From Bifidobacterium asteroides (GTDB taxonomy: Bacteria; Actinomycetota; Actinomycetes; Actinomycetales; Bifidobacteriaceae), in NCBI RefSeq assembly GCF_019469425.1, contig NZ_CP048272.1:1488001-1552000 (forward strand): 64,000 nucleotides of DNA, read 5' to 3'. Both the position numbers and the translations under genes were made by a program. This document shows, piece by piece, positions 2,882 through 13,171 of the stretch (the stretch's first letter is position 1; each line of letters begins with the position of its first letter). A model generated the notes under the pieces. The model made no database searches, was not told the DNA's origin, and worked only from the letters and a program-made list of their open reading frames with translations.

Positions 2882-4744
2882 ATGCAGATGCGATCAGCCA
2901 AGTTGATGAAGGAACGAGAGTTCGCAGGCGCCCGTGCTCTCTATCGTGCCGCCGGCGTCAAGGGCGAAGACTTCGGTAAGCCCATCGTGGCCATCGCCAA
3001 TTCCTTCTCTGAATTCGTACCCGGCCACGTCCATCTGAATAAGGTGGGGCGCCTGGTCTCCAAGGCTGTCAAGGAAGCGGGCGGCATCCCCCGCGAGTTC
3101 AACACCATCGCCGTAGACGACGGCATCGCCATGGGCCATACGGGCATGCTCTATTCCCTGCCCAGCCGTGACCTGATAGCGGACGCTGTGGAGTACTCGG
3201 TCAACGCCCACTGCGCTGATGCCCTGATCTGCATTTCCAACTGTGACAAGATCACCCCCGGCATGCTCATGGCAGCCCTGCGTCTGAACATTCCCACGGT
3301 CTTCGTCTCCGGCGGCCCCATGGAGGCTGGGCGTACAGTCATGCCCGATGGAACAGTCCATGAAAGCACCGATCTGATCGACGTCATGTATGCTTCGGCG
3401 GACGACAACATCGACGATGCAAGTCTGCTGGCACTGGAGAAGACGGTCTGCCCCACCTGCGGATCCTGCGCCGGCATGTTCACCGCCAACTCCATGAACT
3501 GCCTGACTGAGGCCATGGGGCTGGCCCTGCCCGGCAACGGCACCACCCTGGCCTCGCACACAGCTCGAAAGATGCTCTTCGAGCGAGCCGGCAAGCTGGT
3601 CGTCGAGATTGCCAACCGGTACTACCGGGATGACGACGACTCGGTCCTGCCACGGTCCATCGCCACCAAGAAGGCCTTCGAAAACGCCATGACCATGGAT
3701 GTGGCCATGGGCGGGTCAACCAACACCGTCCTGCATATCCTTGCTGCCGCGCAGTCGGCGGATGTGGGTTTCACCCTGGACGACATCGAGCGCATCTCCC
3801 ACACGGTTCCCTGCATCTGCAAGGCCTCTCCCTCCGGAGACTGGGAGATATCCGACGTCCACCGGGCCGGTGGCATCTGCGGCATCCTGGGCGAGCTGGA
3901 CCGCGGCGGGGTCCTTCACCAGGATACGCATTCCATCGATTACCCGGACCTTGAGTCCAAGCTCAACGACTGGGACATCATGCGTCCCACCTGCTTGGAC
4001 CAGGCCAAGGAGCTCTACCACGCAGCGCCCGGGCGCATCACCTCCCCCGAGCCCTTCAACCAGTCCAAGGAGTGGGAGGACCTGGACACCGACCGTGTCA
4101 ACGGCGCCATCCACGACCTGGATCATCCTGCTGTCTCCGAAGGCGGCCTGGCCATACTTCGCGGCAATCTGGCCCCCGATGGCTGCGTTGTCAAGACCGC
4201 AGGCGTGCCCAAGGAAATCTGGAACTTCCGCGGACCGGCCCTGGTGGTCGAATCGCAGGAGCAGGCCGTGGAGGTCATCCTCAACGGCACTCTGCACAAG
4301 GGTCAGGCCCTGGTCATCCGTTACGAGGGACCCAAGGGTGGCCCTGGCATGCAGGAGATGCTCTACCCTACTTCATTCGTCAAGGGCAAGGGCATCGGCA
4401 AGGACGTGGCCCTGCTGACCGACGGCCGCTATTCAGGCGGCTCATCGGGCCTGGCAATCGGCCATATCGCTCCTGAAGCAGCCAACAAGGGCCCCATCGC
4501 TCTGATACGCAACGGCGACATGATCTGCATCGACATCCCCAACCGGCGTGTAGACGTTGAACTGAGCGATCAGGAACTCGCCCGGCGACGCGCAGAACTG
4601 GAGGCCGGCGAGGGATACATGGCTCACAGGGACCGCAAGGTCTCTCTGGCGCTGAAGGCCTACGCCGCCTTCGCCCGCTCGGCAGACAAGGGCGCCACCC
4701 GCGACCCGGATCTAATCAACCGACTGTCGGGTCTGGACCGATAG
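2882..4744 (+). CDS. ilvD: Dihydroxy-acid dehydratase
   Basis: This 620-aa enzyme converts 2,3-dihydroxy-isovalerate and its methyl-valerate homologue to the 2-keto acids of valine and isoleucine synthesis. It belongs to the IlvD/Edd iron-sulfur dehydratases. Cluster ligands appear in [13 protein letters not shown] and [18 protein letters not shown]; the C-terminal [19 protein letters not shown] motif is intact. The ATG at 2882 is preferred over a TTG at 2870. The ribosome site is weak for either. It is transcribed alone, divergent from rpoZ, and ends at a strong bidirectional terminator. No other ilv gene is nearby, so its presence between rpoZ and gmk looks like an independent insertion. 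Confidence 0.96.
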
Positions 4745-4773
4745 AGGCTGAGCCCAGCAGCAAGACTGACCAT

Positions 4774-4813
4774 AATGCCCGGTCATCGAATCACCAATCG
4801 ATGCCCGGGCATT
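4774..4813. terminator. Bidirectional terminator between ilvD and the PTS IIC gene
   Basis: The inverted repeat AATGCCCGG (4774-4782) pairs with CCGGGCATT (4805-4813), one mismatch follows, and then CATCGA (4784-4789) pairs with TCGATG (4798-4803). AT-rich sequence flanks both sides. It lies between convergent genes, so it can serve both. Confidence 0.8.
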
Positions 4814-4834
4814 CATTATAAAGAGATGCATCAC

Positions 4835-5989
4835 TCAGACGAGTACGGTCGTCTTGGCAGGCACAGTTTCCGAAACTTCGGATGAAGACGGTTCCGCCTC
4901 CACAGTTTCTTCTAGATTGTCGACTCGGAATTTAAGCACCATAGTCAGGAGGAAGGCCACGAGCATACCTGCCAGGCAGGCGCCCAAGTAGACAACGAAC
5001 CCATGACCGAAGAATATGGGCAAGGCAGCCAGACTGGGAAAGGCGAAAGCCGTGGCCTGTACGCCGGAAAGTCCTGCGATGACGCCGCCTATGCCCCCGC
5101 CGACGCAGACGGCCAAGAGTGGCCTCTTTCTGGGCAGATTGACTCCAAACATAGACGGTTCCGTGATACCGAATAGGGCCGAAACCGTAGCTGACAGACA
5201 GGTTGATTTGAATGCCTTGTCATGGCTCTTGAACATCACGGCCAGCGCAGCTCCTGCCTGCGCGAAGACCGCCGGACCCATCATGGCTAGAACGGTATCA
5301 TGACCGCTGACGGCAATGTTGTTCATGGCTATGAGAATCAGACTCCAGTGGAATCCGAAAATGACCATGGGCTGGACAGTGGCCCCCAGCAAAAGTCCAG
5401 CAATGACCGGTGAGAGTGCGTACACCCATTCATAGCCAGCTGCCAGTCCGTCACCAATGATCTTGCCTATGGGACCAAAGGCAAAGAGGGTGAGGAGCCC
5501 TATGACCAAGATGCAGACCAGAGGCGTCAGGAATCCCCTAATCACTTCGGGCAACACCCTATCCAGCCATCGTTCCAAATAGACCAAGACGCCAACGGCC
5601 AGAATGATGGGTATCACGCTGGAGGCATACTTGACACCCAGGATCGGAATGCCGAGAAACCTGATGGTCTTGCCGACCTCCTGTACCGCAACCAGATTGG
5701 GATAGAGCAGCATGCCGGCGATAACCACAGCGATGAATGGATCAGCACCGAACTTCTTGGCTGACGTGTAGGCCAAGAGCATGGGCAGGAAGGTAAACAA
5801 ACTGGAGGCCATGGCATCCAGCACAAGATAGGTCTGGTCGCTGGTGCTCAGCACATGGGTCGTCGTCAGAATGACGAGGACACCTTTCATGATGCCGACG
5901 GTCGACAGCAGATTGACTATTGGAAGAAAGATGCCCGATATTCCATCAATGACGATATCAAAAAGTTCTTTGGCGGACCGCCCTTTCAT
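4835..5989 (-). CDS. PTS glucose/beta-glucoside-type IIC permease, IIC domain only
   Basis: This 384-aa multi-pass membrane protein corresponds to the EIIC domain of the glucose/beta-glucoside PTS superfamily. Recognisable features are the N-terminal DGISGIFLPIVNLLSTVGIMKG segment, the GFHWSLILIAMNNI stretch and the ITEPSMFGVNLPRKRPL motif, which corresponds to the substrate-binding GITEP.iyGv loop. About ten hydrophobic segments can be drawn. There is no EIIB cysteine domain or EIIA histidine domain fused, and none is encoded nearby. The gene starts inside the stop codon of the ROK kinase gene (ATGA overlap at 5986-5989), so the two are translationally coupled. The likely role is to import a sugar or anhydrohexitol that the kinase then phosphorylates. 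A shared EIIB elsewhere in the genome cannot be ruled out. Confidence 0.85.
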   Translation of the reverse strand: MKGRSAKELFDIVIDGISGIFLPIVNLLSTVGIMKGVLVILTTTHVLSTSDQTYLVLDAMASSLFTFLPMLLAYTSAKKFGADPFIAVVIAGMLLYPNLVAVQEVGKTIRFLGIPILGVKYASSVIPIILAVGVLVYLERWLDRVLPEVIRGFLTPLVCILVIGLLTLFAFGPIGKIIGDGLAAGYEWVYALSPVIAGLLLGATVQPMVIFGFHWSLILIAMNNIAVSGHDTVLAMMGPAVFAQAGAALAVMFKSHDKAFKSTCLSATVSALFGITEPSMFGVNLPRKRPLLAVCVGGGIGGVIAGLSGVQATAFAFPSLAALPIFFGHGFVVYLGACLAGMLVAFLLTMVLKFRVDNLEETVEAEPSSSEVSETVPAKTTVLV

Positions 5990-6975
5990 AATACGCCGCC
6001 GAAATCGTTGACCAGAGCCGGCTCAGTGCTCTCCATCACTTCTCCGTTGGCACTCATCTGGGGATTCTTTCCGAAGTACTCCACTTCGTCGGCATCCTCC
6101 AGATAGCATTGGAGCGCTCCTACCAGATTCGCATCATTCTGGAATTTGCAGGCTGCCACCTCGGCACGTGAGACGTGATAGGGACAGGTGGCATAGAGTC
6201 GGTCCAGATTGCTTCGGATGGCTTCTATTAGAGCCGGCTGGGCCGATATACCACCGCCAATGGCAAAACGTTGAGGATCGCAAATGTTCTGAATGTTGTA
6301 TATCTGTACCGCCACATCGTGCGCATAGGAATCAAGGCATTCCAAGGCCGTCTGGTCTTGCTCGTCGACCGCCTTGAAGAAGGCGACACCGTCTACATCC
6401 GAAAGATCAAGGTTCTTGCGCTCGGCATAGGTCTTGCACAAACCGGTGGCACTGCATTGGTTTCCCCACACGCCATCCTGGGTCGGTGGATCCTGGGAAG
6501 AAGTCATAATATAGCTGACCTCCCCGGCGGAAAAATGGCGTCCGGGGTAGAGCTGGTGATTGACGATGAAGCCACCACCGATCATTGTGCCGAGAATAAT
6601 GACGAAGCCATCCTGCACATCCTGCAGGCTGCCGACTCGGGATTCGGCCATGGCTGCGCATTTGGCATCGTTCTGAATGACGATGCGCACAGGACAATTG
6701 CGGAAGAGAGCGTGCCTTATATAGAAGTCGTCGTTGTATCTCAAGGCACCGCCCATGGCGCAGTAGCCTTTTTTGCTGTCGATAATTCCGGGCATGGATA
6801 TGGCGATCCCCTGCACACCCGGCTCTTGTTCGAACAACTGGGTCAGAGCCCCAATCAGTTCGTCACGCCCACGCTGAGGCGTAGGCATGGAGTTACGAGA
6901 AACGATTGAGGTGTCTTCCAGCATGTAGGCATATTTGATGGTGGTGCCACCAATGTCTACGGTAAGAATTTTCAT
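5986..6975 (-). CDS. ROK-family sugar kinase, divergent zinc motif
   Basis: This 329-aa protein has the ROK/ASKHA ATP-binding start MKILTVDIGGTTIKYAY, a SMPGIID segment, the catalytic-base motif QNDAKCAAMAE (Asp103), GTMIGGGFIVN and the C-terminal GGGISAQP. ROK kinases phosphorylate hexoses or glycosides with ATP. The usual zinc signature (GHxxxxxxGxxCxCGxxGCxE) is not conserved: GEVSYI replaces GE.GH and only two cysteines remain (QCSATGLC). This resembles beta-glucoside kinase types rather than glucokinase. The ATG at 6975 is preceded by AAGGA. The last 35 residues form an acidic tail. It overlaps the IIC gene by four bases. By context I infer it phosphorylates the substrate brought in by the IIC carrier, possibly 1,5-anhydroglucitol at C6. 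Confidence 0.82.
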   Translation of the reverse strand: MKILTVDIGGTTIKYAYMLEDTSIVSRNSMPTPQRGRDELIGALTQLFEQEPGVQGIAISMPGIIDSKKGYCAMGGALRYNDDFYIRHALFRNCPVRIVIQNDAKCAAMAESRVGSLQDVQDGFVIILGTMIGGGFIVNHQLYPGRHFSAGEVSYIMTSSQDPPTQDGVWGNQCSATGLCKTYAERKNLDLSDVDGVAFFKAVDEQDQTALECLDSYAHDVAVQIYNIQNICDPQRFAIGGGISAQPALIEAIRSNLDRLYATCPYHVSRAEVAACKFQNDANLVGALQCYLEDADEVEYFGKNPQMSANGEVMESTEPALVNDFGGVL

Positions 6976-7072
6976 GATGCATCCTTGCATAACGAACTTC
7001 GCATATCAGACAAGTACTTCGTATCATCCTCGCCCCGGTTATCCAACCATTCAGGAGGAGAATACGCAGACG

Positions 7073-7102
7073 GGGGCATGAATACCGCTAATGCCATGCC
7101 CC
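7073..7102. other. Second hairpin in the aldolase-ROK intergenic region
   Basis: GGGGCATG (7073-7080) pairs with CATGCCCC (7095-7102) around a 14-nt loop. It directly follows the terminator hairpin at 7103-7131 on the minus strand. It may be a processing or attenuation element controlling kinase/IIC expression. Confidence 0.5.
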
Positions 7103-7131
7103 AGAAGAAAATGACCGCTCCACTCGGTCAT
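7103..7131 (-). terminator. Intrinsic terminator after the aldolase gene
   Basis: On the minus strand ATGACCG / CGGTCAT (7125-7131 with 7111-7117, seven-base loop) is followed by the T-rich run TTTTCTTCT (7110-7102). It starts three bases after the aldolase stop. It should reduce read-through into the ROK-IIC pair, which may therefore have its own promoter in 6976-7072. Confidence 0.75.
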
Positions 7132-7133
7132 CG

Positions 7134-7811
7134 CTAGCAGTCGGCCATGGTCCTTCCGGCACCAACCAAGCCTTGGAAGTCAGCGTTGAAGACTTCTACT
7201 GCAGCTGAGATCGCTTGGTTCTTCACGAGGCCATCGATTATGGACGAGCTAAGCGTAGCCGCTCCGATGCCGTACTGGGCCAGCTCCAGAACCTGCTGCG
7301 AATTCTTGAAGCTGGCGGCTAGGACCTCACAGTCAAGATCATTAGTACGGAAAATGTCATGAATGGTCTTGGCGGCCTGAACGCCGTTGTAGCCCATGTT
7401 GTCAATCCTGTTGATGTATGGGGCTGCATAGGAGGCTCCGGCCTTGGCGGCCAGAAAACCTTGCAGAGGCGTGTAAATAGCCGTCGCAGTCACCTTCACA
7501 CCTTCGGCTACAAGGGTCTTCATAGCTTTGAATCCCTGGGGTACGCTGGGAACCTTGGGGAAGGTGTTGGGCCCGAGCTCTTCGACGATCCTGTGCGCAT
7601 CAGCCACCATGCCGGCACTGTCGGTAGCGACCACCTGTGCATGCAGTTCCAAATCCGAACCAATGATGGAGCGTATCTCTTTCAGAACCTCGAAGGGAAG
7701 TCTGCCCGCTTTGGCCAGAATGCTGGGATTGGTGGTGACCCCGTCAATAGGGTAGATGTCAATCAGCCTTCTGATGGCTTGCGTATCGGCATCATCGATG
7801 ATCAGTTTCAT
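7134..7811 (-). CDS. fsa: Fructose-6-phosphate-aldolase/TalC-type aldolase
   Basis: This 225-aa protein belongs to the short transaldolase subfamily that includes FsaA and FsaB. The GVTTNPSIL motif, Gln59 in HAQVVATD, the Schiff-base lysine (Lys86 in FPKVP) and Tyr132 in APYINRID all line up with the FSA catalytic set, whereas true transaldolases are about 100 residues longer. The ATG at 7811 lies behind GAAGGA. FSA enzymes cleave fructose-6-phosphate poorly; in Escherichia coli they are now known to cleave 1-deoxyfructose-6-phosphate, the product of the YbiW/PflD glycyl radical enzymes. Here the gene lies just downstream of such an enzyme, which supports that role. Bifidobacteria lack phosphofructokinase, so a G3P-yielding cleavage route would bypass the phosphoketolase shunt. 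Confidence 0.88.
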   Translation of the reverse strand: MKLIIDDADTQAIRRLIDIYPIDGVTTNPSILAKAGRLPFEVLKEIRSIIGSDLELHAQVVATDSAGMVADAHRIVEELGPNTFPKVPSVPQGFKAMKTLVAEGVKVTATAIYTPLQGFLAAKAGASYAAPYINRIDNMGYNGVQAAKTIHDIFRTNDLDCEVLAASFKNSQQVLELAQYGIGAATLSSSIIDGLVKNQAISAAVEVFNADFQGLVGAGRTMADC

Positions 7812-7854
7812 ACTAGTGTCCTTCACTTATCTAGATGGACTTTGTTTATGTAGG

Positions 7855-7882
7855 GCCTGCCGGGAATGACTTCCCGGCAGGC
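7855..7882 (-). terminator. GC-rich hairpin between the glycyl radical enzyme and aldolase genes
   Basis: A perfect 12-bp stem GCCTGCCGGGAA / TTCCCGGCAGGC with a four-base loop begins ten bases after the enzyme's stop codon on the minus strand. No T tract follows, so a stabiliser or partial terminator that sets the enzyme-to-aldolase ratio is as likely as full termination. Confidence 0.6.
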
Positions 7883-7892
7883 TAAATGGTGT

Positions 7893-10319
7893 TCAGAACG
7901 TCTGCTCAGTCCGCTCGATGATGTCGTCCTGTGTAGCCTTGGATAGCACCGTAAAGAAGGCGCTGTATCCGGCTACCCTGACAATCAAGTCCCTGTGCTT
8001 GTCAGGGTGAGCCTGAGCATCCAGCAGGGTGTCGCGGGAGACCACGTTGTACTGCACGTGGTAACCGTGCAACTGGTCGAAGAAGGCGCGGGTGACCTGG
8101 GAGAGCTTTACCCGGTTCTCCGGCTTGGCCAGCACCTGCGGCGTCATCTTCTGGTTGAGCAGGACCCCGCCAGTAATGTCCTCAGTCGGCAGCTTGGACA
8201 CTGATTTAAAGACAGCCGTAGGACCATGCTTGTCTGCCAAGTGAGAGGGACTGCAGCCTTCGGCCAATGGCTCGCCGTTCTTGCGGCCATCGGGGGTGGC
8301 CAGAGTCCCTGCACCCTGGGGAACGTTGGCTGAGATGGAGCTTGTGCCGGCGCTGTAGGTGCCGCCGATGGGACCACGGCCGTACCGTGTGTTGTGGTAC
8401 TTCTTCATTTCGTCGATATACACGTCGTAGGCCTTGCGGATCAGGCTGTCGACGTAGTCGTCGTCGTTGCCGTACTTGGGAGCCCTCTGCATGAGTCGGC
8501 GAATACGCTCATTCTCCTCGCCTTCCCAGTTCTCCTGCATGGCCTGCCAAAGCCTGGCAGGTGTGACCTTGTGCTCCTCGAAGACCATCTTCTTCACGGC
8601 AGCCAAGGAATCGGCCAGGTTGGCTATACCCACCTGCAGGTCGGAGATGAAGTCATAGTGCGCTCCGCCCTCCTTCATATTCAGTCCACGCTCGATGCAA
8701 TCATCGGTCAACGCGGAGCAGAGAATATCAGCGGTGTCATGTTCGAGAACCATGTCGCATGTGGCGTCAATGATGACACACTGCCTGCACATCTCGCGAA
8801 TGACCTTGTCCCAGCAGGCTTCGACCTGATCGAAACTGGTGAAGTTTGTAAAGTGACCGACCCCTTCGACTAGCTTGGTACCGCTAGCCGGGTCCACGCC
8901 GTCATTCATGGCGATCAGCAGAGCCTTGGGGAAGTTGAGGAAGCTCATACCCGTGCATCGGTATCCCCACTTACCAGGAACAGCGGTCTCTACGCATCCT
9001 ATGGCCGAATACTCGTAAGCATCCTCGCGGCTAACACCCTTGTCGATGAAGCTAGGGATGATGATCTCATCATCGTTGAAGGCCGGCATGCCGAAACCGC
9101 AACGAACCACCTCAATGCACTCTGACATGAAGTCATCGGGCAGGTTCTCGTGATAACGAACCGTGAGGTTGGGCTGTGTCAGATGGCTCTGAGCAACGGA
9201 CTTGAGAATGAGCCAGCTCATGGGATTGGTGGCATCCTGGGGCTGACCGTTCACCAGCTTCTGGCCGCCCACTGTTACATTCTGATACAGGGGTGAACCA
9301 GCAGAGAATTGCGTGTGGCTCCATGGACGGATCTTGTTGATGGTGTAGGTCTTCAGCCAAAGGTTGGTCATCAGTTCGACAGCCTGGGGCTCATCAATGA
9401 GCCCGGCCTTCAGATCCTTCTCATAGAAGGGATCCAGGTATTGATCCATGCGCCCATAGGAGAGCGAGTGACCGTTGGATTCGATCTGCAGGGCCAGATG
9501 CACCAGCCAGACCGACTGAACGGCTTCACGCAGATTCCTGGCGGGCTCATAGGGCACGTGCTCCAAGGCTTCCGCCATTCCACGCAGCTCCTCGGCACGC
9601 TTGTCATTGCCCTCGTCAGCTGCCTGCCTGGCCTGCTTCAGCGCCAGCTCAGCGTAGCGGTGAGCAAAAGTCTTCATGGCGTCAATCACGATGATGATGG
9701 CCCTGTAGAAGTAGCTCTTGTGAATGTTCCGGTAATCGGTCAGATCGAGCTCATCCAGCTTTTCCTGAGCCCGACGGCTGAAGTCCTTGAGGCCATGGCT
9801 GAGAACGACAGCGTAGTTGACGGCGCAGTGTGCATCGCCAGAGGTGATGTTGCCCTCAGACTTGATGATTCCCAAATCATAAAAGAGCTTGGAGTGAGGA
9901 GGGAAGGCTGCCAGTCCACGATCCTGAAGCGTGTTATGCTCCCAGAAGGGTGCAATGGAACGCAGCCTCTCCTTGTTTTCTTCGGTGATGGTGAAGACGT
10001 CGCCGTCACGCTTGTCGAATTGGTCCAGCTCATCAATGACCCAGCCCATAGCATATTCGGGATAGATGGGTGCAGCTCGGTTGGCCGAGGCCTGATTGCC
10101 AACAATGAGAGTTTCCGGCTCGATGTAAATAGACATCGATTCCAAAACCCGCTTGAGCATGATGGCTCTCTTTATGGCCAGCGGCTGATCCTGACATTTT
10201 TTATATACCTCAGTGGTGATCATCGCACGCTCGACGTCGACCTTCGGGGTCACCGAGAGGAGCTGATCACGGAAGGACTCCATCCGGGGTGTCAGCTTGC
10301 CGAAATGTTCTTCGTTCAT
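7893..10319 (-). CDS. Glycyl radical enzyme of the YbiW/PflD type (probable anhydrohexitol-phosphate lyase)
   Basis: This 808-aa protein has the glycyl radical loop near the C-terminus (RVAGYSAFF; Gly about residue 783) and the active-site motif AIGCVETAVPGKWGYRC, with one catalytic Cys followed two residues later by Glu. Pyruvate formate-lyase has adjacent cysteines instead, so a C-O cleaving enzyme is expected. As I remember the E. coli YbiW sequence, it shares long blocks with this protein: GNQAS..RAAPI.PEY, EGN.TSGDAH.AVN, QIESNGHS.S.GRMDQYL, APKYGNDDD and GGVLLNQK. YbiW and PflD open 1,5-anhydroglucitol- or 1,5-anhydromannitol-6-phosphate to 1-deoxyfructose-6-phosphate. The ATG at 10319 follows GGAAGGAAG. 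It works only anaerobically and needs the activase at 11508-12413. The exact anhydrohexitol isomer cannot be read from sequence. Confidence 0.88.
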   Translation of the reverse strand: MNEEHFGKLTPRMESFRDQLLSVTPKVDVERAMITTEVYKKCQDQPLAIKRAIMLKRVLESMSIYIEPETLIVGNQASANRAAPIYPEYAMGWVIDELDQFDKRDGDVFTITEENKERLRSIAPFWEHNTLQDRGLAAFPPHSKLFYDLGIIKSEGNITSGDAHCAVNYAVVLSHGLKDFSRRAQEKLDELDLTDYRNIHKSYFYRAIIIVIDAMKTFAHRYAELALKQARQAADEGNDKRAEELRGMAEALEHVPYEPARNLREAVQSVWLVHLALQIESNGHSLSYGRMDQYLDPFYEKDLKAGLIDEPQAVELMTNLWLKTYTINKIRPWSHTQFSAGSPLYQNVTVGGQKLVNGQPQDATNPMSWLILKSVAQSHLTQPNLTVRYHENLPDDFMSECIEVVRCGFGMPAFNDDEIIIPSFIDKGVSREDAYEYSAIGCVETAVPGKWGYRCTGMSFLNFPKALLIAMNDGVDPASGTKLVEGVGHFTNFTSFDQVEACWDKVIREMCRQCVIIDATCDMVLEHDTADILCSALTDDCIERGLNMKEGGAHYDFISDLQVGIANLADSLAAVKKMVFEEHKVTPARLWQAMQENWEGEENERIRRLMQRAPKYGNDDDYVDSLIRKAYDVYIDEMKKYHNTRYGRGPIGGTYSAGTSSISANVPQGAGTLATPDGRKNGEPLAEGCSPSHLADKHGPTAVFKSVSKLPTEDITGGVLLNQKMTPQVLAKPENRVKLSQVTRAFFDQLHGYHVQYNVVSRDTLLDAQAHPDKHRDLIVRVAGYSAFFTVLSKATQDDIIERTEQTF

Positions 10320-10412
10320 TTTTCTTCCTTCCAGAACACCGCGATTCGGGTCTTTCTGTAAACCGCTAGATCCACACCACAGTGTGCTCCAAATCACATT
10401 TCACTAGAAAAC

Positions 10413-10424
10413 TATCATACGTTA
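10413..10424 (-). promoter_or_regulatory. Candidate -10/operator motif upstream of the glycyl radical enzyme
   Basis: On the minus strand this reads TAACGTATGATA and contains TATGAT, a good -10 hexamer. The same 11-base pattern TAAYGTATGAT recurs at 12464-12474 ahead of the activase gene. A shared motif at both ends of the cluster suggests common control, plausibly by the DeoR protein. Confidence 0.45.
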
Positions 10425-10536
10425 GCAATAAATGCAATTTTGAAACGTATATTTCTTTTATTCGTAAGAGACAAATAGATCATATGATACACAGGTATGG
10501 TTTGCACATTGATAATGGACACTGATGAATCTCATT

Positions 10537-10569
10537 CGGTCTTCGCTGCGCGACTCACAGCGAAGACCG
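10537..10569 (-). terminator. Hairpin after the DeoR gene
   Basis: CGGTCTTCGCTG (10537-10548) pairs perfectly with CAGCGAAGACCG (10558-10569), nine-base loop. It begins about 105 bases after the DeoR stop. No T tract follows. Confidence 0.6.
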
Positions 10570-10675
10570 TCAATCAGCCACTCGCGCAGGAAAGAAAGAA
10601 AAAGGCGAGCGGTGCAGTAGATGCCCAAGAAGGGCACTCAATACATGGTTTATACCGTCTCAGTAGATTCTCGTG

Positions 10676-11422
10676 TCAGACTGTCTCCAGATCGATGCCA
10701 TGATCCAACAGCTGTTTCGATGCTTCTGCGGTAATGTTGTTATCGGTGATAACCATGGTGCTTTTTTGAGGAAGATTCAGCGAGACCGTGCTGCCATGGC
10801 CAAACTTCTCGCTCTCCGTAAGAATCACAATGCGCATGGCGTGCATGGCCATGTCACGGACAGCCTGAGCCCGCATCTGATCACGGTTGGCGAACCCGGT
10901 ATCAGGGTCAAACCCATCAGCCCCGATGAACATCACATCCACCTGTATGCCAGTAAGACACAAGGGAACCATGGGACCCACCAGAACTTGGGCGCTGTGC
11001 TGATAGATACCGCCAATCAGAATAATCTGGCAGTTGCCGGCATCACCGGTATAGTGAGCCACGAAGGCACTGTTAGTGATGATGGTCAGGTCCTTTTTGG
11101 TACGCGCCAGCTCAACCGCCAGCAGAGCGCAGCAGCTGCCATTCTCCACGATGACCGTGCCGCCGTCAGGCACACAGGCGACAGCCCTACGCGCAATCCT
11201 CAGCTTCTGCTCATAGTGACGAGCCAAGCGACCTTCGACATTGTCTGTGCTTTTGATGGCAGCATACCCATGCTCTCTGGTGATGAGACCACGACTCTCC
11301 AGCTCGTTCAAATATTTACGTACGGTCACCTGAGAGACGCCCATACCCTTGGCGATCTCGCTGACCTCCATTCGCTCTCTGTCGATGAGCATCTCAAGGA
11401 TGCCGTTGGCACGATTGTCCAC
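10676..11422 (-). CDS. DeoR-family transcriptional regulator
   Basis: This 248-aa protein has an N-terminal winged helix-turn-helix (about residues 5-57, VSEIAKGMGVSQVTVRKYLNEL) and a DeoR C-terminal sensor domain with GGTVIVENGSCCALLA, ITNSAFVAHY, LIGGIYQ and MFIGADGFDPDTGFAN, which is the sugar-phosphate-binding fold. DeoR proteins usually repress carbohydrate operons until a phosphorylated sugar binds. The start is a GTG at 11422 with AAGGA upstream at a somewhat long spacing. It sits between the activase and the glycyl radical enzyme genes, all leftward, so it is the natural local regulator. I infer that a phosphorylated anhydrohexitol or 1-deoxyfructose-6-phosphate is the inducer; the ligand cannot be read from sequence. 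Confidence 0.88.
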   Translation of the reverse strand: MDNRANGILEMLIDRERMEVSEIAKGMGVSQVTVRKYLNELESRGLITREHGYAAIKSTDNVEGRLARHYEQKLRIARRAVACVPDGGTVIVENGSCCALLAVELARTKKDLTIITNSAFVAHYTGDAGNCQIILIGGIYQHSAQVLVGPMVPLCLTGIQVDVMFIGADGFDPDTGFANRDQMRAQAVRDMAMHAMRIVILTESEKFGHGSTVSLNLPQKSTMVITDNNITAEASKQLLDHGIDLETV

Positions 11423-11507
11423 CTGAACCCGTCCTTAGTCGAGAGGTCACCCGCCCCGTCATGAACATTCTAGAATGCCGAAAGCCGTCGTGAAAGTCAA
11501 GCGAGCT

Positions 11508-12413
11508 TCAGAAGAAGGCGTGCACACCTTCCTGCTCATAGACCTGTCGGTAGTCTTCCAGATCTTCCTGATGAGTGTTGGGTACATTACTGTACTTGTA
11601 ATCGTCGCGCTGCAGAAGATCATATTTGGACTCACCGAAATTATGGAAAGGCAGAAGCTGAACCCTATCCGCGCCCAGCTTCAGCAGGCGCAACGCCATC
11701 TGCCGGGCATCATTCATCTTATCGTTATAGTCAGGAATCACCGGGGTTCGAACCAGGACATCCTTGCCGCTATGCAGGGCGTAACTGGTGTTGCGCTCAA
11801 TCAGACTCAGACCAACCCCAGTCCCCTCCTTATGAACCTGTTCGTCCCAATGTTTCATATCGATGAAGACGTGATCCAGGTGATCCAGGGCGCTTCTGAA
11901 GACTGATTCCGGTACATGTCCTGTGGTTTCGATGTTGGTGTCAATGCCCCGATCCTGCAAGGCCGACAGCAGGGCCACACAGAAGTGCCCCCACACCAAG
12001 GGTTCGCCGCCTGAAAGCGTTACCCCTCCACCGCTCTGACGATAGAAAGGCAGATCTTTCATACACTGATCGACAACTTCATCCAGATCGCGCGTCCTCC
12101 CAACCAGACTCAGTCCCTTGCACTCGCGTGTGGCCTCCAGAGCAGCGGAATCGTCATATCGCAGTGCATGCACGTCCACAGCTCTGCTCCGGTCGGTCTT
12201 GACGAATCCCGGGGACGCAGGCAGAGCATTGCAAGCAAAACACCCCGAACACGATTTGGGATCCCACTCGAATTGAGGCGTGCGGATCTGGCTCTCCGGG
12301 TTGGAGCACCAGCCGCACCTCATAGGACAACCCTTGAGGAAGACCACCGTACGGATGCCGGGCCCGTCATTCAAACTAAACTGCTGGATGTTAAATACAG
12401 TGGCGGATACCAT
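11508..12413 (-). CDS. Glycyl radical enzyme activating enzyme (radical SAM)
   Basis: This 301-aa protein installs the glycyl radical on its partner enzyme using S-adenosylmethionine and a 4Fe-4S cluster. The radical-SAM motif CPMRCGWC gives Cys29, Cys33 and Cys36. A ferredoxin-like insert follows with CSGCFAC (Cys55, 58, 61), found in activases of non-PFL glycyl radical enzymes. GGGVTLSGGEP is the SAM-binding GGE motif. The start is set at the ATG at 12413 because GGAGG is six bases upstream; an ATG at 12425 or the in-frame codon at 12443 have no such site. The insert has fewer cysteines than the usual eight of a double ferredoxin insert, so only one auxiliary cluster may be complete. It opens the catabolic cluster. 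Confidence 0.93.
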   Translation of the reverse strand: MVSATVFNIQQFSLNDGPGIRTVVFLKGCPMRCGWCSNPESQIRTPQFEWDPKSCSGCFACNALPASPGFVKTDRSRAVDVHALRYDDSAALEATRECKGLSLVGRTRDLDEVVDQCMKDLPFYRQSGGGVTLSGGEPLVWGHFCVALLSALQDRGIDTNIETTGHVPESVFRSALDHLDHVFIDMKHWDEQVHKEGTGVGLSLIERNTSYALHSGKDVLVRTPVIPDYNDKMNDARQMALRLLKLGADRVQLLPFHNFGESKYDLLQRDDYKYSNVPNTHQEDLEDYRQVYEQEGVHAFF

Positions 12414-12462
12414 GGTCGCCTCCATTGCGCAAGACCCGAACAACTATTCTTTCTTCTGAAGC

Positions 12463-12491
12463 AATCATACATTACATATGAAAGCAATACA
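12463..12491 (-). promoter_or_regulatory. Probable promoter of the activase-deoR unit
   Basis: On the minus strand a TTGTAT hexamer, a 17-base spacer and TATGAT (12469-12464) form a plausible sigma-70 promoter about 50 bases ahead of the activase start. The -10 is embedded in TAATGTATGAT, the motif shared with 10413-10424. Confidence 0.5.
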
Positions 12492-12523
12492 AGTCATATT
12501 GATTCGCGGAAGAGACCTAATAT

Positions 12524-13171
12524 TTAAAATTCGTATTCCTTGGCGATTACCTCCCAGAGCGCCTGGGCTGCTTTATCCACGCTGTCGTTGACTATGACCT
12601 GGTCGAACTGATCCTCGGAGGCCAGCTCCACCTTGGCGGTCTCCAGCCTGCGGGCACGCTGCTCTTCATTTTCGGTTCCCCTCATGTTCAGCCTGGTGAC
12701 CAGGTCATGAAATGAGGGCGGCGCCAAGAAGACGTAGAACACTTCCAGGCCCAGCTCCCCCGCCCGTTGGCGGACACGGTGCGCCCCCTGCAGGTCGATC
12801 TCCAGAATCGTGGGCACCCCTGCTGCCAGATGGTCCAGGACCGGCTGCAACGGGGTGCCATAGTGGGACATGCCATGGACCAGGGCGGTTTCCAGAAAGT
12901 CCCCGGCGGCCTCCCTGCGGGCAAATTCCTGCTCATCCATGAACCAGTAAGTGACGCCGTCCTTCTCGCCCGGACGCGGCGCCCGGGTGGTGGCCGAGAC
13001 GGAGACCCAGACCTCTGGGTGGGCATGACGCAGGGCCGCCTCCACAGTGCCCTTGCCTACGGCCGTGGGCCCTGTGAGCACGATCAGCCGGCCGCCAGTC
13101 TTCCCCGCCCCTCCGGTCTGCGCTTCCGAAGAGTCCTGTATCGACATGTCGGCACCGTTGATTGCTGACAC
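12524..13171 (-). CDS. gmk: Guanylate kinase
   Basis: This 215-aa enzyme phosphorylates GMP to GDP. The P-loop LTGPTAVGKGT, the GMP-binding SVSATTRAPRPGEKDGVTYWF and ILEIDLQGA are all present; the C-terminal lid and R-rich ENEEQRARRLETAKVEL segment are normal. I choose the GTG at 13171 with GGAAAGGAAG upstream; a GTG at 13177 and an ATG at 13147 are alternatives, which only changes a non-conserved N-terminal tail. It follows carB on the same strand, as is common in bifidobacteria. In related genomes rpoZ would follow directly; here the anhydrohexitol cluster and ilvD intervene. Confidence 0.95.
   Translation of the reverse strand: MSAINGADMSIQDSSEAQTGGAGKTGGRLIVLTGPTAVGKGTVEAALRHAHPEVWVSVSATTRAPRPGEKDGVTYWFMDEQEFARREAAGDFLETALVHGMSHYGTPLQPVLDHLAAGVPTILEIDLQGAHRVRQRAGELGLEVFYVFLAPPSFHDLVTRLNMRGTENEEQRARRLETAKVELASEDQFDQVIVNDSVDKAAQALWEVIAKEYEF

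Follow-up and report, generated by a model that had tools for sequence, protein, structure and literature searches.

Can lower glycolysis alone suffice for a bifidobacterium to ferment a hexose derivative, and how would such a sugar be taken up and phosphorylated? This question is raised by a six-gene cassette at positions 4835 to 12413 of the stretch analyzed here, 64,000 nucleotides of Bifidobacterium asteroides DNA (the window) that correspond to positions 1488001 to 1552000 in a genome made up of one contig of 2,233,706 bases. All six genes lie on the minus strand and encode, in order of transcription, a radical-SAM activase, a DeoR-family regulator, a glycyl radical enzyme (GRE), a fructose-6-phosphate aldolase (FSA)-type protein, a ROK kinase, and a IIC carrier of the phosphotransferase system (PTS) type. 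We consider it probable that this cassette arrived by horizontal transfer and that it serves, as a regulated module, to break down 1,5-anhydroglucitol (AG) anaerobically through anhydroglycolysis, the sugar entering without the PTS.

Anhydroglycolysis through E. coli ybiW-ybiY-fsaA was reportedly described by Ma et al. in 2024 (JACS). PMC12507026 cites that work. The pathway, its enzymes, and its occurrence in gut bacteria are already published and are covered in PMC12441222, which states that both E. coli routes start with phosphorylation by the PTS. Among the open-access titles and abstract openings listed in our searches, we found no report of the pathway in bifidobacteria, although the networks of Ma et al. 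may include them. This does not contradict a preliminary description of the cluster, made from the sequence alone, according to which use of the pathway by this genus had not been described.

The six-gene cassette is intact and conserved

All six reading frames are open and intact, and their products match the Pfam families Radical_SAM, DeoRC and HTH_DeoR, PFL-like and Gly_radical, TAL_FSA, ROK, and PTS_EIIC. Six further genomes of the family (L024 to L028 and L032) carry these six genes with order and orientation unchanged, and because of this repetition, the arrangement is not due to chance. Thus, the cluster proposed in the preliminary description was recovered in full. As for its bifidobacterial background, the genome shares its family with Bifidobacterium sp. 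ESL0784 (L037), but the two fall in different genus groups (g1 versus g5).

The GRE is of the YbiW type

The preliminary description had spoken of a YbiW/PflD-type enzyme with a CxE active site and an RVAGYSA loop. Both motifs are present (C442-V-E444 and R781-VAGYSA, numbered from ATG 10319), PF01228 and PF02901 were matched, and by score, identity, and tree position, the enzyme is of the YbiW type rather than the PflD type. It is 50.7% identical to E. coli YbiW and 36.2% identical to E. coli PflD. In a comparison with all PDB sequences, the top match was 6xs4 (908.6 bits), labelled formate C-acetyltransferase, followed by two YbiW entries (886 and 885.3 bits), with glycerol dehydratase (561 bits), diol dehydratase (518 bits), and PflD (8yjo, 448.9 bits) lower. 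In a midpoint-rooted tree of 57 GREs, including those of 35 of 80 named loci, the window enzyme fell inside a YbiW group of 48 rows (support 99/94), apart from a PflD-type group of 6 rows (100/99) and 2 HypD-type rows; a more distant GRE (L104_second, 39.7% identity) was placed just outside the YbiW group. Furthermore, a 15-sequence comparison revealed segments common to the window enzyme and E. coli YbiW (SGDAH, ESNGHS, SAGSPLYQNVT, GMPAFN, ETAVxGKWGYRCTGMS, RYGRGPxGG, and GTSSISANVP) that are altered or absent in E. coli PflD, RYGRGP(I/V)GG being among those absent. Assignment to PflD, the anhydromannitol enzyme, was ruled out by the score, the 36.2% identity, and the position outside the PflD-type group.

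Because the GRE is YbiW-type (51% identity to YbiW versus 36% to PflD), its likely substrate is AG-6-phosphate. Of the two substrates offered at first, AG-6-phosphate therefore stands as the prediction, whereas the much greater distance to PflD makes the anhydromannitol compound unlikely. More broadly, the cassette might apply the same GRE-aldolase logic to another anhydrohexitol or 1-deoxy sugar, such as 1,5-anhydromannitol or a glucoside-like compound, since the GRE shares no more than 51% identity with the characterized YbiW and the kinase and carrier come from beta-glucoside families, their substrate here being not proven. We regard this as unlikely given the scores of PflD and YbiW (448.9 versus 886 bits), the segments that differ in PflD, and the structure of AG, a glucopyranose minus the anomeric oxygen, which would suit BglK-like and BglF-like partners.

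Grouping of the GRE with glycerol, propanediol, or other dehydratases, which the preliminary description had named as the outcome that would speak against it, did not appear in the tree or in the PDB scores. Glycerol, diol, and hydroxyproline dehydratases were ruled out by much lower PDB scores, with no HypD, CutC, or other equivalog cut-off reached. The low GC content of the insert (0.541 versus a mean of 0.584 for same-size windows, 11 of 113 of which are lower) and the occurrence of HypD-type GREs in two genus members could be read as signs of such an ordinary dehydratase or of a decayed, unused insert. Besides the dehydratase scores, however, the six open frames and the 83 to 85% identity of the GRE, over its full length, to the GREs of the six same-order cassettes make this reading highly improbable.

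Separately, the two genus members just mentioned (L035, at 6519 to 10068 of its locus, and L036) each carry another GRE with an activase. That of L035 is a trans-4-hydroxy-L-proline dehydratase (NF043068, 1264.1 bits; cut-off, 1100), and that of L036 is its partner in the tree.

The aldolase and the host genome fit a route into lower glycolysis

The residues Gln59, Lys86, and Tyr132 ascribed to the aldolase in the preliminary description align as expected: Q59, K86, Y132, D6, T26, N28, R135, and S167 correspond to FsaA Q59, K85, Y131, D6, T26, N28, R134, and S166. We take these eight positions to be catalytic or substrate binding, with the Schiff-base lysine accompanied by Gln59 and Tyr131. 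Two of 14 listed positions are changed relative to FsaA (F57 to H and L107 to T), and the best PDB matches are fructose-6-phosphate aldolases.

In E. coli, FSA cleavage yields glyceraldehyde-3-phosphate and hydroxyacetone, which a GldA-type enzyme reduces to 1,2-propanediol. A reductase gene had been predicted to lie outside the cluster, and a genome search located a GldA-type dehydrogenase gene at genome positions 995618 to 996706, the product of which scores 488.9 bits with NF006941 (cut-off, 336) and 432.7 bits with the GldA equivalog, under its cut-off of 700. This gene is probably older in the genome than the cassette because 20 of the 26 other genomes of the genus carry GldA without the cassette. 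In the window genome, no match to the phosphofructokinase (PFK) family PF00365 was found (the same family matched in 9 of 14 control genomes), and a phosphoketolase is encoded. A second PFL-like protein, encoded elsewhere in the genome, is assumed to be pyruvate formate-lyase.

In the route that we propose, AG would be imported unphosphorylated by the orphan IIC and converted to AG-6-phosphate by the ROK kinase with ATP. The activase would install the glycyl radical, and the GRE, by orthology to E. coli YbiW, for which this reaction has been shown in the literature, would open the ring to give 1-deoxyfructose-6-phosphate. The aldolase, likewise by orthology, would cleave this product to glyceraldehyde-3-phosphate and hydroxyacetone, and the latter would be reduced with NADH to 1,2-propanediol by the GldA-type dehydrogenase encoded elsewhere. 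Since PFK was not found and a phosphoketolase was, glyceraldehyde-3-phosphate from the cassette would join lower glycolysis past the absent PFK step, avoiding the phosphoketolase shunt, the separate entry that had been suggested at the outset. By our own arithmetic, AG + H2O would give 1,2-propanediol + acetate + formate, a redox-neutral balance with about 2 ATP.

Sugar entry appears to rely on a kinase and a lone carrier

The ROK protein contains DIGGT and NDAKCA motifs but scores only 165.7 bits with NF042998 (BglK), under the equivalog cut-off of 550, and is therefore classed only as ROK. The GFHW/GLHW and GITEP segments of the IIC, presumably substrate-side motifs, align with those of the IIC part of BglF. 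The genome has no PF02378 match other than this IIC, and a search of its single contig for PF00367 IIB proteins gave none (the family matched in 5 of 14 control genomes), with enzyme I, IIA, and other IIB families not searched genome-wide. Neither the window nor any of 93 loci matched the IIB and IIA parts of BglF at an E value of ≤0.01. With no glucose-type IIB found, uptake appears to be unlike that of E. coli. The ROK gene ends 4 bases into the IIC gene (ATGA at 5989 to 5986), and the two are therefore probably translated in a coupled manner.

Relatives offer two parallels. In Actinomyces israelii (L105), a homologous IIC (53% identity) follows a different, glucokinase-like ROK gene beside a YbiW-type GRE. 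In all four g6 genomes (another genus group) with the cassette, a RhaT/GlcU-type sugar symporter gene lies downstream, and in three of them the stretch retrieved showed no IIC, so that here, too, transport would not involve a PTS; the symporter of L031, the one scanned against families, matches PF06800 (273 bits; cut-off, 26.3) and scores 222.1 bits with TIGR00776, under its cut-off of 319.6.

Uptake might still proceed by the PTS, with the IIC served by IIB/IIA of another family and the ROK protein in another role. HPr is encoded in the genome, a point that counts against our proposal because the PTS could contribute, the IIC shares its GFHW and GITEP segments with BglF-type carriers, and E. 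coli, as noted above, phosphorylates the sugar in this way. We nevertheless judge this quite doubtful because of the absent IIB and BglF-part matches in the searches just described, the overlap of the ROK and IIC genes, and the pairing of the A. israelii IIC with an unrelated ROK. Taken together, the missing PF00367, the lone IIC, the A. israelii pairing, and the g6 symporters favor a carrier plus an ATP-dependent kinase over the PTS, and we infer that an uncoupled IIC and such a kinase replace it here.

Evidence weighing against the proposed route

Several observations weigh against the proposal of PTS-free AG catabolism. All functions of the cassette are deduced from sequence. In the GRE tree, the branch of E. 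coli YbiW is long (1.99) and drew a warning from the tree program that long branches meet there, and the root is a midpoint root. The aldolase is below all NCBIfam FSA cut-offs (203.9 versus 306, 193.9 versus 214, and 189 versus 245.95) and is therefore a divergent FSA-type protein, and the kinase and carrier are both below every equivalog cut-off. GldA (E value of ≤1e-80) is encoded in 52 of 189 family genomes, namely, 8 of the 12 with the GRE and 44 of the 177 without it (Fisher P of 0.004, not corrected for kinship); it is therefore not a dedicated partner, and the four cassette genomes in which it was not found would need another enzyme in its place.

Neighborhoods of the GRE point both ways. 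We counted genes within 4 kb of the GRE at the 52 named loci flanked on each side by 4 kb or more, drawn from the best 80 of 545 confirmed loci, a choice that biases the named loci toward close kin; one of the 52 (L037) is the family member ESL0784. In favor of the proposal, activase genes are present at 44 of the 52, DeoR at 39, FSA at 27, and ROK at 17. Against it, the orphan IIC is rare (2 of 52, one being ESL0784), and man- or chb-type PTS carriers occur at 3. From the ROK and PTS carrier counts, kinase-based and PTS entry probably coexist among relatives.

With these points included, we lean toward a broader view, with more reserve than for the cassette itself. Bifidobacteriaceae and some other Actinomycetota may carry out PTS-free anhydroglycolysis, with a partner-less IIC acting as a plain AG carrier beside a dedicated ROK kinase, and a PFK-less organism may in this way ferment a hexose derivative via lower glycolysis alone.

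The cassette is a rare, probably acquired insert

A YbiW-type GRE was found in 1 of 27 genomes of the genus and 12 of 189 genomes of the family; a class-wide search gave 1 of 394, the window's own, which shows rarity only. Seven of the 12 (the window and six g5 genomes) have the six-gene order. Among the g6 genomes, L029 has all six kinds of gene but another activase, and three others are alike without the IIC. The 12th (G165), a 7.3-kb contig on which only the GRE was found, is presumably a termite-gut row, as we read from its series of metagenome-assembled genomes. In the tree, the window enzyme and the six g5 enzymes group together (98/94) within a group of eleven rows that also holds g6 (100/98). 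The neighbor of this group is Anaerococcus degeneri (87/88, long branch), followed by Oscillospiraceae and Treponema rows at about 77% identity. Because G165 lies elsewhere in the tree, the enzyme probably entered the family twice.

In the 12 closest genus members, matches to ilvD and gmk lie 86 to 93 bp apart (gmk identity, 93 to 98%), versus about 7.8 kb in the window. Of the other 14 genus genomes, 8 have ilvD at a distance of 134 to 936 bp from gmk, 5 have metK as the neighbor, and 1 showed neither gene. The clean empty site argues for gain in the window lineage, loss in every relative being less likely. Exact words of 8 to 14 bases common to the two junctions (4701 to 4900 and 12381 to 12560) were not found, and we therefore claim no mobile-element mechanism.

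The related cassettes differ in some components. In four g6 genomes (L029, L030, L031, and L033), the activase is different and divergently placed, with 40 to 43% identity to that of the window versus 62 to 63% in g5. Because the g6 GREs are nevertheless 84 to 85% identical to the window GRE, one activase gene seems to have replaced another; in that of L029, the one g6 activase aligned, the auxiliary cysteine segment is missing. L024 has two FSA-type aldolase genes (5251 to 5919 and 10872 to 11540), in and just before the cassette, 79% and 78% identical to that of the window. An acetolactate decarboxylase gene adjoins g6 cassettes (L031, 6039 to 6833, over the TIGR01252 cut-off; L030, 14637 to 15413, by eye).

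Features of the locus and candidate regulatory sites

Table 1. Genes of the cassette and its surroundings (window positions)
Feature	Position	Strand	Evidence or remark
Radical-SAM GRE activase (YbiY-like)	11508..12413	-	TIGR02494, 275.6 bits (cut-off, 174.35); CxxxCxxC (CPMRCGWC), retained when aligned with YbiY and PflC; possible upstream start TTG 12443
DeoR-family transcriptional regulator	10676..11422	-	PF00455 and PF08220; adjoins GRE in relatives
YbiW-type GRE, predicted AG-6-phosphate lyase	7893..10319	-	TIGR01774, 894.7 bits (cut-off, 678.2); PDB matches; tree; motifs; frame open from GTG 10397, start in homologues corresponds to ATG 10319
FSA-type aldolase, predicted 1-deoxyfructose-6-phosphate cleavage	7134..7811	-	PF00923; PDB matches; catalytic residues; frame open from GTG 7826
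ROK sugar kinase, BglK nearest; predicted ATP-dependent AG 6-kinase	5986..6975	-	PF00480; best PDB match, beta-glucoside kinase 4htl; frame open from ATG 6990
Orphan PTS IIC (beta-glucoside type), predicted uncoupled carrier	4835..5989	-	PF02378, 115.6 bits; 41% identity to IIC part of BglF
Inserted segment between ilvD and gmk	4746..12531	.	Limits are the end of similarity to relatives; 12 relatives with empty site
ilvD (flanking)	ends 4744	+	
gmk (flanking)	13177-12524	-	

The DeoR protein is the likely regulator of the cassette. TTACGAA/TTTCGAA-like stretches recur in the upstream alignment of 11 loci (the window and 10 relatives) and may be candidate DeoR sites, but this alignment is loose and we draw no conclusion from it. 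Promoter-like sites were about as frequent as in shuffled sequences (5 versus 5.8; standard deviation, 2.5), as were terminator-like sites (7 versus 5.7; standard deviation, 2.2). A perfect 12-bp inverted repeat lies upstream of the GRE gene (10537 to 10569) and another between the GRE and FSA genes (7855 to 7882); both were missed by the terminator scan and are possible mRNA-processing or operator sites.

Discussion

If our reading is true, the cassette gives these bacteria a route from a hexose derivative around the phosphoketolase shunt, with 1,2-propanediol as a product. It is also a compact single-locus system for testing an orphan PTS IIC as an uncoupled transporter. According to PMC12441222, AG is present in human blood, and its phosphate accumulates and harms neutrophils in glycogen storage disease type Ib and G6PC3 deficiency; gut bacteria able to remove AG would be of practical interest given these disorders. 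The same review doubts the benefit of anaerobic AG removal by a probiotic.

Among known systems, E. coli ybiW-ybiY-fsaA has the same YbiW-type GRE, activase, and FSA aldolase, with GldA likewise encoded away from the ybiW locus. However, that system phosphorylates by the PTS, whereas the window cassette has a ROK kinase, an orphan IIC, and a DeoR regulator, in a host in which PFK was not found. The anhydromannitol branch, E. coli pflD-pflC-frwBCD-ptsA-fsaB-gldA, similarly joins a GRE, an activase, an FSA aldolase, and a PTS-type carrier in a single locus, but it has putative IIB genes (frwB and frwD) and ptsA alongside, which the window cassette lacks, and the GREs are 36% identical. BglK and the BglF-type IIC are the nearest families of the window kinase and carrier; unlike systems built on them, the cassette has no IIB/IIA parts and no glycosidase and is coupled to a GRE. 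Thus, the pathway itself is known from E. coli, and what seems new here is its apparent kinase-based, non-PTS front end.

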